Source: Pirellulales bacterium (lineage in GTDB: Bacteria; Planctomycetota; Planctomycetia; Pirellulales; JAICIG01). Taken from it: a stretch of 64,000 bases of DNA. The notes below the pieces were generated by a model, which did no database searches, had not been told where the DNA came from, and saw nothing but the letters and a program-made list of their open reading frames with translations. The DNA is taken from contig DATLUO010000038.1 in the NCBI GenBank assembly GCA_035533075.1, positions 1 to 64,000 on the forward strand, written 5' to 3'. Of this stretch, positions 6,642-15,598 are shown in pieces. The translations under genes and the position numbers were made by a program. The stretch's first letter is position 1; the number at the start of each line of letters is the position of its first letter.

Positions 6642-6817
6642 CTACTCCAGCGTCAGCTTCACCAGATCGCTCACCGAGCGGACGGCGCCGGGCGTGGCCA
6701 GGTAGCTGATGCCGCGGTGCAGGTGCAGCCGAAACTGTCGGGCGACCGTTTCGTCGTCGCAGCCATGCCCGTCCCGCTCGCACCGCTCCTTGACCAGCGC
6801 CAGATACAGTAGTATCG
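6642..6817 (-). pseudogene. dndE remnant (C-terminal part only)
   Basis: From about 6817 down to a TAG stop at 6642 the frame encodes roughly 57 residues. It contains LYLALVKERCERDGH and, later, FRLHLHRGISYL, the pattern of the C-terminal half of DndE, the small protein of the DNA phosphorothioation complex. There is no start codon and no N-terminal half. It is joined directly to the dndD remnant, which is read one frame over, as if a deletion removed the end of dndD and the front of dndE. The order dndC-dndD-dndE on one strand matches functional dnd operons. The assignment rests on remembered family patterns. Confidence 0.6.
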
Positions 6818-7304
6818 CCGGTCGACCTCCGTGTCGGTCGACAAGATGATCACCTGATGGCTGGCGTTGGGAAAGTACCGCTCGACCAGGTGCTCGCGGT
6901 GCCGTTGGTCGAGCCGGGCCATCGGCGTGTCGATGATCGCCGGCAGCGAGCGAGCGCTGGGCCGTGCCAGGCCCCATAGCACCGAGATGGCGAAAATCTG
7001 CTCCTCGCCTTCCGAGAGTCTTTGCTTGGCAAGCGCCTGCCCGTCGCTGCCGTAGAGCGTGATCGCGAACGTCCGCGGATCGATCATGATCTGCTCGACG
7101 AGCGTCTGCTTGCGCAGCAAAAAGCGGAACGACTCGGTCACCAGCGACGACAGCCGGTCGATCTTGGCCGCCGTCGCGCGGCGCAGAAACTCCTGCATCG
7201 TCGTCTTGGTCCGGGCCGCAAGGTTCGCCATCCGCACGGTCTCTTCTTCGCGAATCTCTTGCTGCACCCGCTTGCGCAGCAGCTTCTGCTGCCGATTGAC
7301 CCGA
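6818..7304 (-). pseudogene. dndD remnant (C-terminal ATPase part only)
   Basis: An uninterrupted stretch of about 160 residues resembles the end of the DndD SMC-like ATPase. It has a basic coiled-coil tail, the signature-like LSEGEEQIFAISVLWGLA, a Walker-B-like PAIIDTPMARLD, and an ILSTDTEVD motif near the end. DndD is normally about 650 residues with an N-terminal Walker A domain; here the first two thirds are absent and the fragment abuts a block of hairpin repeats at 7303. At about 6815 the reading frame jumps into dndE-like sequence. The fragment can be read from a GTG at 7267 to a stop at 6671, but the tail of that frame is not DndD-like. It is non-functional as it stands. Confidence 0.75.
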
Positions 7305-8039: not shown

Positions 8040-9326
8040 ATGGTCCCCAAGCACCAGCGCAACTACGAATTCCGCTGTCCGGTTCACGGGTTCATCACGC
8101 TCAGCGCTTGGGAGCGTGAGATCGTATCGCAACCAGCTTTCCAGCGGCTGCGGCGGATCCGCCAGCTCGCCTGGACCGACCAGGTCTATCCCGGCGCAAT
8201 GCACACGCGGTTTGAGCACTCACTGGGCGTCATGCACGTCGCAACGGCGATGTACGATGGCCTCGTGCATTCGAGTCGGAGCATTCTGGAACATGACCTG
8301 AAATTCGACGCCGCGGGGATCGAGCGAGATCGCATTCTCGTGCGACTAACAGCCTTGCTGCACGACGTGGGCCATGCACCGTTCTCGCACGCCGCCGAAG
8401 ACCTGTTTCCTGTGATCCGCGACGAGCGCGTTCATCGTTATCAGCATGAGGACTACTCGGCAGCCATCATCCGCCAGAAGTTGCGAGACGCGATCGAACA
8501 ACACCCGCTCAACGACAACTACAGGATCGGCGCCGACGAGATTGCCAACCTCCTCGAGCGATCCGTAGCGGCAGGGCGGGCACTCGTCTGGGGAGACATC
8601 ATCAGCGGCCAAATGGATGCCGACCGCATCGACTACCTCCTCCGTGATTCGTTGCACGCCGGCGTCCAGTACGGCCGTTTCGACTGGCGGCGACTGATGA
8701 GTTGCCTCGTGCTCGTTCCGTCGGTCGAGGAACCGGGCTTCCGACTTGGTGTCACGGAAGGCGGGCTGCACGCCGCGGAATCGCTCGTGTTGGCCCGCTA
8801 TCTCATGTTTACGCAAGTCTACTTCCACAAAACCCGCGTCGCCTTCGACCATCACCTCCACCATGCTTTAGCGGAAGTGCTGCCGGGCGGCGTGTTTCCG
8901 CCGCCATCCGCCGACGCCCTTGATGAGTTTCTTGGCTGGGATGATTGGCGGGTGCTGGGAGCGCTGGCCGAGGGTCGCGGCGGAGAGCATGGTCGAAGGC
9001 TCCGCCAGCGCGACCACTTTCGCGAGGTGTATCATACGCCGGAAACTCCCAGCGCACGCGACCTGGCCCGCTTCCGCGGCATTTGCGACAATTTGGGCCC
9101 ATTGCTCAGAACGGTGGTGTCCGCCGAAAAATCTTGGTATAAAGTGGACAAGTTGGAAATCCCGGTTCGTAGCGACAATCCCGGACGGCGTGTCGTCTCG
9201 TTGTCGAAGCTCTCGACAGTCGTTGCGGGATTGAAGCCCATTGACAAGCGGATGGCGTATTGCGCGCCGGAAGACAAGGAGCGGGCCTTGGCCATTGTCG
9301 TCAAACGAGAAGGAAGGAGCCGATGA
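8040..9326 (+). CDS. HD-superfamily phosphohydrolase (YwfO/dNTPase-like)
   Basis: This 428-residue protein has the full HD metal-binding set: H55 in HTRFEHSLGV, the HD pair H108-D109 in LLHDVGHAPFSH, and a later aspartate in MDADRIDYLLRD. These match the deoxynucleotide triphosphohydrolase-like branch that includes SAMHD1 and B. subtilis YwfO. The likely activity is hydrolysis of (d)NTPs or related nucleotides in the cytoplasm. Its stop overlaps the start of the next gene (ATGA at 9323-9326), so the two are translationally coupled. Such HD/YwgA pairs occur together elsewhere (from memory, in B. subtilis). The pair lies between the two halves of dndC and on the opposite strand, as expected for an inserted cassette. 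Confidence 0.85.
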   Translation: MVPKHQRNYEFRCPVHGFITLSAWEREIVSQPAFQRLRRIRQLAWTDQVYPGAMHTRFEHSLGVMHVATAMYDGLVHSSRSILEHDLKFDAAGIERDRILVRLTALLHDVGHAPFSHAAEDLFPVIRDERVHRYQHEDYSAAIIRQKLRDAIEQHPLNDNYRIGADEIANLLERSVAAGRALVWGDIISGQMDADRIDYLLRDSLHAGVQYGRFDWRRLMSCLVLVPSVEEPGFRLGVTEGGLHAAESLVLARYLMFTQVYFHKTRVAFDHHLHHALAEVLPGGVFPPPSADALDEFLGWDDWRVLGALAEGRGGEHGRRLRQRDHFREVYHTPETPSARDLARFRGICDNLGPLLRTVVSAEKSWYKVDKLEIPVRSDNPGRRVVSLSKLSTVVAGLKPIDKRMAYCAPEDKERALAIVVKREGRSR

Positions 9327-9886
9327 ACGCAGACAAACAAGGATGGTTCCGGTTGGCGGTGCTTGCAACGCTGGTCAAGCGCGCGCCGCAGCCGCCTGGC
9401 CGGACCGCCATGATGAAGTTCGCCTACTTGCTGCAGACGTTGCGCGGCGTGCCTTTGGGCTATGACTTCCGCTTATACAACTACGGGCCGTACGATATCC
9501 GCGTGCTGAACGATCTTTCGCAAGCCGAGAGGTTCCGGGCGGTGAAGGAGAAGACCGTATCCTATCCCAAGGGCGACGGCTATCAGTATTTGCCCAAAGA
9601 GCGGTGCGAGTGGGTTTGCGCCCAGGCGGCCGACGAGCTCGACGAGTTTGGCGAGGCCATCGATTGGCTCGTCGAGCGTTTCGCTTCCGAGCCGGCCTGG
9701 CGGCTGGAATTGTTTTCGACGATCGTCTATGCCGAGCGCGAGCTGCGGCGCAAGCAGCAGCCGCGTTCTCGCAACGAGCTTTGCCGCCGCGTGCAAAGCA
9801 TCAAACCCTACTTCGACGGCGAGAAGATCGCGGCCGCGGTCGACGCCCTTGCCCGTGACGGCCTGATCGAAGCCCCGGCCGATTAA
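9323..9886 (+). CDS. YwgA-like protein, partner of the HD phosphohydrolase
   Basis: A 187-residue protein starting at the ATG overlapping the HD gene's stop, preceded by AAGGAAGGAG. A longer reading from 9260 is possible but lacks such a site. The core KFAYLLQTLRGVPLGYDF followed by LYNYGPYD matches YwgA-like proteins, which resemble the DUF4065/Panacea fold found in toxin-neutralising and proteolysis-adaptor proteins. It may regulate or be coupled to the HD enzyme. No catalytic residues are recognised. The gene stops at 9886, only 7 bp before the truncated end of the dndC 5' fragment at 9893, so the downstream boundary of the inserted cassette is sharp. Confidence 0.65.
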   Translation: MNADKQGWFRLAVLATLVKRAPQPPGRTAMMKFAYLLQTLRGVPLGYDFRLYNYGPYDIRVLNDLSQAERFRAVKEKTVSYPKGDGYQYLPKERCEWVCAQAADELDEFGEAIDWLVERFASEPAWRLELFSTIVYAERELRRKQQPRSRNELCRRVQSIKPYFDGEKIAAAVDALARDGLIEAPAD

Positions 9887-9892
9887 GCTAGT

Positions 9893-10491
9893 TGGTCGAC
9901 CCAGCAGCCGAACCGGCTGGTGCCGCAGCTCGGCGTCGTGGTATCGACTACCAGCGGGCATTCGCCCCGTCGCTGGCCCCCTGATACATGCCCAACGGCG
10001 ACTTGTTGGTATGCCCCCAGGGGTTTTTGTATTGCATCAAAAACAGCCACACGTCGTCGTTCGACCAGTCTTCGATGGGCGTATAGGCCAGCGAGTTGGG
10101 CAGATTGGCGTTGGGCGTGAGCCGTTCGCGGACGCGGCGGGCATCATGTTTGGCCATCGTGCGTGCCCGGCGTTGGCTTTCGGCCTTGCGCGTGCCGAGC
10201 ACCAGAATGGCCTCGCCATTATCGCGGACGACGTCGCGAATGAGGCGGTTCGAAGGGTCGATCTTGAGCCGTTCGGTACACCAGCGAAACAGCTTTCGCG
10301 ACGTCGGATAGCCGCGGCCGATCAGGTTCACCCAAAAACTGCTCTTGGTTTCCGGCGTCAGCTCATGCGGTACGATCGGAATATGCTGTTCGCGAGCGGC
10401 ATCGCGCATTTTGGCCCGCGAGGCATCAACCAACGCCGCAACCAGCGGCTACTCAACCAGCGTGTCGTTGGTAATGACATGGTGGGACCGA
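9893..10491 (-). pseudogene. dndC remnant, 5'/middle part, with nonsense and frameshift
   Basis: The frame carries diagnostic DndC segments: VITNDTLVE, FWVNLIGRGYP, FRWCTERLKI, ILVLGTRKAES, YTPIEDWSNDDVW and MYQGASDG. After a frameshift near 9965 it continues ECPLVVDTTTPSCG and then SRFGCWVDQL, where the gene is cut off. A TAG codon at 10449-10451 stands where family members usually have Asn (LVE-stop-PLV). The N-terminus with the nucleotide-binding loop is missing beyond about 10491. It is clearly a pseudogene of the phosphorothioation desulfurase partner. The 3' part survives at 7580-7916 beyond the HD cassette. Confidence 0.85.
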
Positions 10492-10535
10492 ATTCGCGCC
10501 CTTCCTGTTCAAGGCGATGCCCTGAGCCATGCGTA

Positions 10536-12380
10536 TCAAGCGCGCGCGGCGTTGATTTCTGCGATCGCGTCACGAAACGCGGTGATAAGGCGGTTTTCCA
10601 AAATGTAATTCACCATGTCATCCAAATGCATGAACTCGTAGTCGCGTCCAAACGCGCTTCGCTGTTCGCTCTTCCAAGCGGCCATAAGTGGCTCGACGTG
10701 CGGATCTGCGTGGCCATTCCAGATAAGAATAGCGACGCGTTCTTCGACGGGATCGTGGATCTGAAAGGGATCGAGTGGAACCTGAAACATCTCTTCGAGT
10801 TGAAGACGAATCTGTCTCCAGCCCGCTTTTTTGATGTTACCGCATTTCGCTTGGTACATCCGCAGCACGAGCCGGCCGTTGTGTTCCGCGGCGACTGCGA
10901 TATCCTTACCGTACTCGATCGGTCCGTGCCGAATCTGCGCGTATCGCGGCACCGAATTCTGGAACAGACGAAGCAGTAGGCGACGGAAGTCGCGCTCGTC
11001 GGTGATTCCCTCTAAAGCGCGGTGCATCCAAAGGCGATTTGGTCCTTCGAGGATGCCGATGGCGCGCCGGTCGATAGCTTTCCGCACCGTCTCTGCTTCG
11101 ACTTGCCTAATGAGTGGAATACGATCAAGTGCGAGCATCGCCCGGCCAACGGAGCTAAGCCCCTGCCTGCGATCCGCACGCATCTGCTCAAAGCCAGCAT
11201 AGGCATGGTCAAGAAATTCCAACGTCGCAGGGTCGCCGTCGTTTTCGCCAAAGAACCTTATGTCCGATTCGAATACTGCTCGTGCGTCCGCTGCGCCAAT
11301 GCCATGATCCAGGCCGAGAGCACCAGCCAACATCCGAATCAATAGGTGATATCGATGGACGGCTGTGTGGGCATACGATCGATGATCAGGCATACATGCG
11401 GCTGCCTGAGAGATATACTCCTCCGCGCGTTCTGGATCTGTCACAGCTCGGGCGATCCATGAGCGCGATCGAAAGTACGGCGCCCACAGATGGCGGTTAA
11501 CCCCCGACCAGGCCCCGTCGGCATCTCTGTACGTCTCGGGACCCGTGTCCTCGAAAATCGTCGCAGCCCCCGCGAATGATTCGGCTGCGCATTGCGTAGC
11601 GGTAAACGCCTGCACCGCCATTTGCCAGCCGCGCAAATCTGGCGACTTAAAGGCCCACGAGCATCGTCCTGAGATCTCGTGAGCTGCACGGTAGTCGCCC
11701 ATACGAAGAAAGAGCTCGAATGCCGAGGGAACGCGGAAGCAAAATGTTCGGACGTGGCTGTCCCACGTCGTCGTTTCGGAGCTGACGACGCCGCCCGGGA
11801 ATTCCGGGGTCCACGGCCCGGTGATTGGCCCCTGCAAGCGCAAGCCATAAACGAGAAACGACGCAGCGTTGTGATGATCACTGAATCCGCGCACAAGGCG
11901 ATCGGCAAGCGTCAAATAAACCGCGTTGGTGTCGCGCGCCAACTGACGTTCATCCGCGTAATCGAGCGAGCGGAGTTCCTGGTACCATTGCCTTAGCGCG
12001 AGAAGCGCTTCCATCGAATCGGCAGGGCTCCCTTCAACGCAGGACCGGAATGCCGCAATGGCTCGGCCGATATAGCCAACCCTTGTTTTACGATCGAGCA
12101 GCCCCCATCCAGCACGCGTGGCGTCTATGAGCGCAATACCTGCCGCGAACGGATACCCCGTTGCCAACCATGAGTCAGCCGCTTGACCTAGCTGCTCGAC
12201 CCTCGTCATCGACGGGCTCTCAAAGCGCGGGCCCGCCCAATAGGCGTCCTCGGGCGTCAGAATCAATTGGTCTTTCATTCCGTAGTCGATCCGGCCTGCA
12301 TAGAAAACCTGCATTATACGCGGTCGGAGATCAAAACTCGCACGAGCGAGGCGAATTTGGAGAGTATCAAAGACGGTCAT
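10536..12380 (-). CDS. Unknown helical protein with C-terminal PD-(D/E)XK-like domain
   Basis: The likely start is the ATG at 12380, giving 614 residues; a longer reading to 12452 adds a low-complexity leader. I recognise no named family. Roughly the first 470 residues are helix-rich. The C-terminal 140 residues contain RHGPIEYGKDI (E489, D493) followed 17 residues later by MYQAKCG (Q510, K512). That spacing is reminiscent of the E-x(3)-D...Q-x-K core of Mrr-like PD-(D/E)XK nucleases, so a DNase or DNA-binding role is possible. The gene is divergent from a DUF262-HNH gene with a 160-bp shared promoter region, and both lie in a defence island. Codon use looks less GC-extreme than in flanking core genes. 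The nuclease call is inference. Confidence 0.55.
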   Translation of the reverse strand: MTVFDTLQIRLARASFDLRPRIMQVFYAGRIDYGMKDQLILTPEDAYWAGPRFESPSMTRVEQLGQAADSWLATGYPFAAGIALIDATRAGWGLLDRKTRVGYIGRAIAAFRSCVEGSPADSMEALLALRQWYQELRSLDYADERQLARDTNAVYLTLADRLVRGFSDHHNAASFLVYGLRLQGPITGPWTPEFPGGVVSSETTTWDSHVRTFCFRVPSAFELFLRMGDYRAAHEISGRCSWAFKSPDLRGWQMAVQAFTATQCAAESFAGAATIFEDTGPETYRDADGAWSGVNRHLWAPYFRSRSWIARAVTDPERAEEYISQAAACMPDHRSYAHTAVHRYHLLIRMLAGALGLDHGIGAADARAVFESDIRFFGENDGDPATLEFLDHAYAGFEQMRADRRQGLSSVGRAMLALDRIPLIRQVEAETVRKAIDRRAIGILEGPNRLWMHRALEGITDERDFRRLLLRLFQNSVPRYAQIRHGPIEYGKDIAVAAEHNGRLVLRMYQAKCGNIKKAGWRQIRLQLEEMFQVPLDPFQIHDPVEERVAILIWNGHADPHVEPLMAAWKSEQRSAFGRDYEFMHLDDMVNYILENRLITAFRDAIAEINAARA

Positions 12381-12541
12381 GCCAGTGCCGGGCCGCGATA
12401 CCGCGGCAGCGCTTGAAAGGCTTACCAAAGCTCTGGCCGATGGTGGAGGCATCCGGCGAAGCCGTCAAGGGCCGGCTCGTCGAAGCTTGTGGCCAAGGTC
12501 TTTGAGCGCTAGACTGGAATCGTTTGACCTAGCGCAATCGG

Positions 12542-13852
12542 ATGCCTCAGATGAAATTCGGCAAGACGGCTTACTCGTTAAAGGAACTCGTCGGTGCATG
12601 GAAGGACGGGTTGCTCGTTCGCAATCCCGAGTATCAGCGCGGCGAGGCATGGAGCCTGTCCCAAAAGCAGGCACTGGTTGATTCGCTCTTTCGCCACTAC
12701 CCTATCCCGCCGTTGTTCCTAGAACAAAAGGTTAAGGCGAGCCTTGGCGGGGCAAAATCGGAAAAGTACGAGATCATCGACGGCCAACAACGCCTCCTCG
12801 CGATCTCGGAATACTTTGACGGCAACTTCGCCCTGCTTGCGCCGCACGACAAGCGGCTGCGACTCCCAGTTAGCCTCCGGACACAATCCGCACGATGGGC
12901 GGAACGACGATATGACGGTTTAAGCCATGAATTGCGGACGGAACTGGATGACGCAAAGGTTGATGTTTTCGTCGTTTCGCACGTCGATCATCCCGATGAA
13001 GTACGAGATTTGTTCATCCGATTACAGTCAGGTACCGCGCTGACGAGACAGCAGATCCGGGACGCGTGGCCTGGCCATCTTGGGCCATTCGTCGAATCAC
13101 TGGCTGGTAAGTTGCAAAAGCGGCCGAGATTCGAGTTCTTTGAGCTCGTCGATGGCCGAGGGCTCCGCGATGAGGAGGGCGATGCTCGGGATCCGTATGT
13201 CAAGCATCGCCAGACCTGTGCGCAGCTCTTGCGGATCATGCTGGCCCGAATGATAGAGCCGGCCGAGTTTCCGAGCATTGCAGCGGGCGACCTTGACGGC
13301 CTCTATCATGAATACACGGACATCGACCTTGAGGGCCCGACGATACGGCGAGCTCTGCAGGTGTTTGACGCGGTCGAGGAAGTCGGGCACCAGATTGGCC
13401 GGATGTACACGCGAAAATACAAGATCCACAAGCAGGGCATGTTTGCGCTATGCACCTTCTTTCAGGACGCCTTTCGCAATCCAAACTTCAAGATGGACCG
13501 AGAATCCATCCGCAAGCTTGCGGAGTACGTCACAACGAAAGCCCCCAAGGCTGAGGGTAAATCGAGTTCCGCGGCCAAGAATGCGGCTTATTATGAAAGA
13601 TGGCGGGTCCAGTTGCCTGAGGGTATCGGCGTCAAGCTTGACCCGAAGCGGCTTTTTGACGACAGCCAGAAGCAGGAGTTACATCGCCTTTCGGGTGGCA
13701 AGTGCAAGAGGTGTGATCGACCGACCGAACTTGCTGATGGCGAGGGCGATCATTACCCAATACCTCATCGCGATGGCGGCCCGACGACGATCGAAAACGG
13801 GCGATTCGTCTGTAAAGAATGCAACCGCCCCGGCCGCCCAAGACTTCCATAG
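12542..13852 (+). CDS. DUF262 (GmrS-like) protein with C-terminal HNH nuclease domain
   Basis: This 436-residue protein has the DUF262 signatures: NPEYQRGEAW (residues 29-37), PIPPLFL, and the catalytic-type IIDGQQR (D80). A C-terminal HNH/zinc module of about 50 residues follows, with CKRC, GDHYPIP, an H-x-D-GG-x-T segment and CKECN. DUF262 is the nucleotide-handling ParB/Srx-like half of GmrSD-type modification-dependent restriction enzymes. It is also the N-terminal domain of SspE, which restricts phage DNA in phosphorothioating hosts. Here it is fused to HNH rather than DUF1524. The neighbouring dnd remnants and SBD-like HNH gene fit an anti-phage role. The target modification is unknown. 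Confidence 0.8.
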   Translation: MPQMKFGKTAYSLKELVGAWKDGLLVRNPEYQRGEAWSLSQKQALVDSLFRHYPIPPLFLEQKVKASLGGAKSEKYEIIDGQQRLLAISEYFDGNFALLAPHDKRLRLPVSLRTQSARWAERRYDGLSHELRTELDDAKVDVFVVSHVDHPDEVRDLFIRLQSGTALTRQQIRDAWPGHLGPFVESLAGKLQKRPRFEFFELVDGRGLRDEEGDARDPYVKHRQTCAQLLRIMLARMIEPAEFPSIAAGDLDGLYHEYTDIDLEGPTIRRALQVFDAVEEVGHQIGRMYTRKYKIHKQGMFALCTFFQDAFRNPNFKMDRESIRKLAEYVTTKAPKAEGKSSSAAKNAAYYERWRVQLPEGIGVKLDPKRLFDDSQKQELHRLSGGKCKRCDRPTELADGEGDHYPIPHRDGGPTTIENGRFVCKECNRPGRPRLP

Positions 13853-15001: not shown

Positions 15002-15598
15002 TCAAAGCATCGGCTTCGTCCGCGCGCTTCGCTTCCGCTTGGCTCGTTCGGCGCCACCGGCCCGCGGTGCGTCGCCCTCCGCGGCCGCGAAGCCGATGCG
15101 GCGCTTTTTGGGCGCCGGCGGCGGGGCCATGAGCTGGCGGATGGCCTCGAACACCACGCGAAAGTTGTCATCGTACTTGCGCTCCAGCTCCGCCAGCTTC
15201 GCCGCCAGATCTTTGTGGGACGCCAGGATTTCCCGCAGGCGGACGAAGGCCCGCATGATGGCGATGTTCACCTCGATGGCCCGATCACTGTTTAGGACGC
15301 TGGAGAGCATCGCAACACGCTGCTCGGTGAAGGCGTAGGGCAAATACTTGCGGTGTTGGCCGCGCCCGCTCTTTAAGGTCACAAATTGTGACCTTAAAGC
15401 CGCCGCCTCGTCAGCGGTCAGTTGGAACATGAAATCGTCGGGGAACCGCTTGGCGTTACGCTTGACCGCCTGATTGAATGCCTTTGTGGGCACGCCATAG
15501 AGCTCGGCCAGATCGCGGTCGAGCATCACTTTCTGGCCACGGATGAGCAGAATCGCCCGCTCGATTCGCTCCGCCGGAACTAAAAGCTCTTTCGCCAC
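15002..15598 (-). CDS. ORF6N-domain protein (phage-type DNA-binding domain)
   Basis: A 198-residue protein starting at GTG 15598. The first 110 residues match the ORF6N domain: [47 protein letters not shown] and [16 protein letters not shown] helical region and a basic, Ala/Pro-rich C-terminal tail follow. ORF6N proteins are phage-derived, probably DNA-binding, and often found in mobile or defence regions. The codons for RSQFVTLK form part of a 29-bp palindrome (15371-15399), repeated in shorter form just past the gene. It lies between an intact HNH gene and its degraded copy, consistent with a small mobile or duplicated block. The biological role is unknown. Confidence 0.85.
15371..15399. 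repeat. 29-bp near-perfect palindrome inside the ORF6N coding sequence
   Basis: Fourteen-base perfect arms (CTTTAAGGTCACAA and its complement) surround one central base within codons for the ORF6N domain. Because it coincides with coding sequence, its conservation at DNA level would need a separate reason, such as binding by the gene's own product. Confidence 0.8.

Follow-up and report, generated by a model that had tools for sequence, protein, structure and literature searches.

A protein of 614 residues, TPR-REase, encoded in a 64,000-nucleotide stretch of DNA from a Pirellulales bacterium (the window, on contig C38 of an assembly of 8.5 Mb), joins a long TPR-like helical superhelix to a C-terminus that is predicted to be a PD-(D/E)XK nuclease of the Mrr/FokI type. 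On balance, TPR-REase is probably an effector nuclease that is rare, has spread horizontally and stands alone; most likely it acts against mobile elements, and its TPR coil would gate the nuclease. The parts are known, and their arrangement was not found described in the open-access literature searched, in which no described TPR-Mrr-like defence protein matches. The features on which the following discussion draws are collected in Table 1.

Table 1. Features of the window, with positions counted from its first nucleotide.
Feature	Position	Strand	Basis or remark
TPR-REase gene, 614 aa	10536..12380	minus	ATG 12380; homologues; AlphaFold2 model
TPR-like helical superhelix, aa ~43-457	11010..12254	minus	AlphaFold2 (pLDDT mostly 80-95); VIA matches
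Predicted PD-(D/E)XK (FokI/Mrr-like) nuclease, aa 458-614; E489, D493, Q510, K512	10539..11009	minus	Homology; AlphaFold2; VIA
DUF262 (GmrSD_N, DGQQR) + PF01844 HNH, 436 aa (DUF262-HNH)	12542..13852	plus	Pfam
dndC remnant, aa 57-255, two frames, in-frame TAG	9898..10499	minus	Distance to the TPR-REase stop codon: 37 bp
Remnants of dndD (aa 465-629) and of the dndE C-terminus	6645..7300	minus	Sequence match
SBD-HNH, probable phosphorothioate (PT)-dependent restriction endonuclease, 298 aa	13908..14804	minus	NF045808; motif; PDB
Degenerate second SBD-HNH copy (5' part), about 80% DNA identity	15668..16166	minus	Sequence comparison

The 614-residue reading frame is a true gene, as homologues and fold confirm. 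The longest frame containing it starts at 12452 (10536-12452, minus strand). The observed open frame has 642 codons, whereas in the region as simulated 300 times by a first-order Markov model the longest open frame had a median length of 193 codons and never exceeded 443. Translation bears out the C-terminal E-x3-D...Q-x-K motif given in the preliminary description of this DNA: from residue 485 the protein reads HGPIEYGKDIAV...MYQAKCG, in which E489-x3-D493 is followed by Q510-x-K512. The start is uncertain, and M35 (at 12278) is a possible alternative, because residues 1-39 form the low-confidence part of the AlphaFold2 model and the homologue alignments begin only near residue 40; the composition of codons 1-34 is still coding-like.

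The full-length AlphaFold2 model, built from an eight-row alignment, has a pLDDT of 80.9, and the long N-terminal region, which the preliminary description recognized as helical and left unassigned, forms a superhelix of helix pairs that is all helix except for a small beta insert at residues 180-217. Its VIA matches are TPR and proteasome-lid repeats, Rap and LGN at Z 10-13, matches that are generic and fall in a range in which, by VIA's own caution, all-helical scores (Z up to 13) can arise by chance; generic TPR matches likewise dominate the Foldseek search with the whole model. No TPR sequence profile in Pfam matched, and the N-terminus is therefore TPR-like by fold only. Pfam and the model also agree that TPR-REase has no NTPase domain of the STAND type, which places it outside the Avs/STAND class.

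The nuclease core spans residues ~458-595 according to AlphaFold2 and comparison with the PDB, and the domain modelled alone reaches a pLDDT of 86.2 and a pTM of 0.82. Its modelled order of helix, three strands, helix, strand, helix and strand (a-b-b-b-a-b-a-b) contains the alpha-beta-beta-beta-alpha-beta core of the PD-(D/E)XK superfamily, and the catalytic residues occupy the D ... (D/E/Q)-x-K positions, with D493 preceding or starting the second strand (494-500) and Q510-x-K512 ending the third (503-512). Residues 445-600 of the full model superpose on FokI with a VIA Z of 11.6 and an rmsd of 3.1 over 143 residues, and the domain-only model matches FokI (Z 11.7), the BspD6I small subunit (10.0), EcoT38I (9.8), MspJI (9.7), LlaBIII (9.6), AspBHI (9.4) and Avs4 (8.8), followed in lower rows (Z 5.8-7.5) by LmuA, Upx, Shedu, HamA, Can2 and Cap4. 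Since the leading rows are nearly all PD-(D/E)XK nucleases, the nuclease core suggested in the preliminary description is present in the predicted fold, as the Foldseek matches to the domain also indicate.

FokI, MspJI and AspBHI, like TPR-REase, carry their PD-(D/E)XK core at the C-terminus, and the D-x16-[DQ]-x-K spacing of TPR-REase is the same as in FokI; the N-terminus of these enzymes, however, is a DNA-recognition module, whereas that of TPR-REase is a TPR superhelix. The likeness raises the possibility of a type IV (modification-dependent) enzyme, in which the helical N-terminus and beta insert would read modified DNA and the C-terminus would cut close to it, in the manner of MspJI, AspBHI and Mrr. 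The best Foldseek matches of the domain are indeed MspJI chains (E 2.7e-4 to 9e-4), AspBHI reaches Z 9.4 in VIA, and the gene lies near a probable PT-dependent enzyme, but we regard this reading as unlikely, as Pfam finds no SRA, SBD, PUA or winged-helix reader in the protein, and a TPR superhelix, as which the N-terminus is modelled, is usually a binder of proteins or peptides.

Sequence comparison relates the nuclease domain to an Mrr_cat restriction endonuclease. The C-terminal 153 residues matched a 'restriction endonuclease' encoded on a Rhodococcus plasmid (WP_064075238.1, pdjl-6-4), with 71 residues aligned at a pairwise E of 5e-10, and this homologue passes the Pfam cutoff for Mrr_cat (PF04471); TPR-REase itself gave no match to Mrr_cat up to E 10 and lies outside the curated cutoff. 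Mrr_cat enzymes such as the Rhodococcus protein have the same HGP-x-E-x-GKD ... Q-x-K nuclease domain, but with the nuclease N-terminal and a helical C-terminus, so that the order in TPR-REase is reversed, and the helical parts are not alignable. Neither Pfam, NCBIfam nor PADLOC holds a credible match to the 614-residue family, and searches of the PDB by sequence with the protein, the domain or a profile gave nothing credible. Single-sequence searches of plasmids and phages returned nothing, and no relatives occur in the viral contigs; the single-sequence matches obtained in viral contigs and sampled genomes (L002, L003, L005 and L006) proved spurious, being antisense or unrelated frames. Olokun OloB gave only a weak match, to the Phycisphaerae relative described below (E 0.0073).

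When 84,980 species genomes were scanned by an alignment-based method, which relied on the motif [RTI]HGP[LIY]ExG[KR]D and would therefore miss relatives with another motif, three full-length relatives emerged, each about 36% identical to TPR-REase, in MAGs of Planctomycetia (L017), Syntrophaceae (L018) and Phycisphaerae (L019). TPR-REase thus belongs to a family of which only four members are known so far. All the full-length relatives have HGPIEYGKD and the lysine in common; H485, G486, P487, E489, G491, K492, D493 and K512 are identical in 4/4 members, and Q510 is kept in three, being replaced by S in L019. Between members, identity is 47-51% in the nuclease domain and 24-31% in the helical part, and a profile of the helical part, run against 246 genomes of the phylum, revealed no other fusion partner. 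The Syntrophaceae gene (L018 9941-11665) is full length with two in-frame TAG codons and has an IS1595-like transposase immediately upstream; it is either a pseudogene or the product of an assembly error.

In the same scan, a Roseomonas protein proved to have this nuclease domain, as did two NACHT-like NTPases (L021 9911-12268 and L022 8339-11053), in which the HGPxExG[KR]D domain is N-terminal; the NACHT label is our reading of Walker-type sequences rather than a Pfam result. Avs4 (PDB 8dgf) also has a nuclease domain of the type found in TPR-REase, as its VIA score indicates. The fusion of such a nuclease to a NACHT NTPase is an architecture typical of defence. In Avs and NACHT proteins of the STAND type, an NTPase is present and the nuclease is N-terminal, whereas TPR-REase has no NTPase and a C-terminal nuclease.

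The distribution of TPR-REase is scattered over Planctomycetota and Syntrophaceae; it is missing from sampled close relatives and was not found in any other genome sampled in the phylum. On the contig of the Planctomycetia relative there are two restriction genes, one of type IIG R-M and one of type IV (Mrr), while the neighbourhoods of L018 and L019 are ordinary, with no evident defence island. These ordinary neighbourhoods, and the use of PD-(D/E)XK folds in repair, would suit a cellular nuclease of DNA repair or processing, or a regulator, with no part in defence. We nevertheless consider a cellular role distinctly improbable in view of the very patchy distribution, the decayed L018 copy and the occurrence of this nuclease domain in NACHT fusions.

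The gene adjoining TPR-REase encodes, as the preliminary description stated, a DUF262-HNH protein, with Pfam matches to PF03235 (E 1.1e-19) and PF01844 (E 2.9e-7). GmrSD, BrxU, SspE and DndI combine a DUF262 domain containing DGQQR with a C-terminal HNH nuclease (PMC11662687, PMC10952713). The resemblance to GmrSD and SspE that had been noted extends to the DGQQR-containing DUF262 domain and to an HNH domain at the C-terminus, but the HNH domain of the neighbour is PF01844, whereas that of GmrSD, BrxU, SspE and DndI is DUF1524, to which Pfam found no match in the neighbour; sequence comparison with these four in the PDB likewise gave no match. The neighbour is a common GmrSD_N+HNH protein that lacks DUF1524, rather than SspE or GmrSD proper. 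Its best full-length plasmid homologue (L027 4935-6206, Rhizobium plasmid p7) stands within an operon of SNF2, DNA methyltransferase and DEAD/DEAH helicase genes, possibly a restriction system.

The two genes had been proposed to form a two-gene anti-phage system acting together from a shared divergent promoter. They do adjoin one another in divergent orientation, and the supposed 160-bp promoter region corresponds to a real gap of 161 bp between the ATGs (263 bp if translation starts at M35), but no sigma-70-like promoter was found in it. The GC3 of both TPR-REase (0.62) and DUF262-HNH (0.64) is below that of most neighbours (0.73-0.83), and joint arrival is therefore allowed, though not proven. 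The gene-neighbour survey, however, speaks against the proposal. The flanking DNA examined around the three full-length relatives contains no DUF262 or SBD-HNH homologue, and the DUF262-HNH query, which does find homologues in other genomes, found nothing in the whole genomes of the three, which as MAGs may be incomplete; conversely, TPR-REase is absent from the surroundings of eleven DUF262 loci in genomes of the same phylum, the window's own included. The pair is thus not recurrent at the loci surveyed, where TPR-REase is independent of the DUF262-HNH gene, and a joint two-gene system is highly improbable; DUF262-HNH and SBD-HNH are best read as restriction genes in their own right that share an island with TPR-REase.

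This island also contains the dnd debris to which the preliminary description referred. The dndC remnant is split into two pieces in separate frames (aa 57-231 and aa 223-255), and the remnants of dndC, dndD and dndE keep their operon order, although an HD-domain gene and one further, small gene lie in between; the rest of the genome has no other dndC and no convincing dndD. An HD-domain phosphohydrolase gene at 8040-9326 adjoins a gene at 9320-9883 (+) for a 188-residue protein that, in PADLOC, weakly resembles the C-terminal portion of DarG (E 2e-8). The product of 15002-15598 (-) matches the PADLOC candidate defence family PDC-S05 (E 9e-58), and a BBP7 porin gene is present in the window (Pfam), which, like the relatives found, points to Planctomycetota. 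Could TPR-REase itself be a relic, its frame intact and its function lost as the island around it breaks down? The dead dndC, dndD and dndE and the decayed SBD-HNH copy that adjoin it, as well as the stop codons of one relative (L018), are compatible with such a fate, but with 614 codons open, all catalytic residues kept and no simulated chance frame exceeding 443 codons, we hold this to be very unlikely.

The intact SBD-HNH gene probably encodes a sulfur-binding, PT-dependent HNH enzyme, as judged from its resemblance to known members. Like SprMcrA and EcoWI, it combines HNH with the sulfur-binding-domain motif KPzzLL-PF-L-W (PMC7461809), here KPLLLL...FPF..L...W together with HNH_2 by Pfam, and it matches the sulfur-binding domain of PDB 8h0l at E 0.011. 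Its match to NF045808 (NCBIfam 'phosphorothioated DNA-binding restriction endonuclease') has an E of 2.4e-33 but, at 115 of 180 bits, stays below the cutoff for such PT-dependent enzymes. A published survey saw a possible link between SBD-HNH enzymes and a dnd cluster in <3.6% of cases, and it proposed a mutated dnd cluster as one reason for such pairings (PMC7461809). The position of SBD-HNH beside a dead dnd cluster fits this reason, and the broken operon next to it provides a concrete case for the proposal.

The computations establish the architecture and fold of TPR-REase, its conserved catalytic residues, the existence of its family and its independence from DUF262-HNH. We infer DNA as its substrate, the TPR coil as its sensor and inhibitor, and a role in defence from the way in which NACHT/Avs-type proteins and restriction enzymes use the domain, as well as from the patchy spread. 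In the mechanism that we favour, the TPR coil would keep the FokI/Mrr-type nuclease idle; it would bind a protein or peptide that originates from a phage or from stress; and this binding, or oligomerisation driven by it, would release the nuclease to cut DNA. The C-terminal homology to the Rhodococcus enzyme, the FokI-like fold, the conserved catalytic residues in the relatives, the NACHT fusions of the domain, the low GC3, the patchy spread, and the restriction genes and dnd debris nearby, with the two restriction genes on the L017 contig, all argue for a stand-alone, TPR-gated nuclease of this kind, while the location of L018 and L019 outside evident defence islands, the two TAG codons of L018, the S in place of Q510 in L019, the small family of four and the generic nature of the TPR matches argue against it. 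TPR-like sensors are part of Avs, and a more specific version, a 'minimal Avs', would be an undescribed single-protein immune sensor-effector in which the TPR coil directly gates an Avs-type nuclease, in the absence of an NTPase, upon binding of a phage protein; we put this forward only tentatively. Should control of the nuclease by the TPR coil prove to be direct, TPR-REase would be a sensor-nuclease that dispenses with the ATPase switch of Avs and NACHT proteins, and it would offer a simple setting for studying to what extent such a switch is required.
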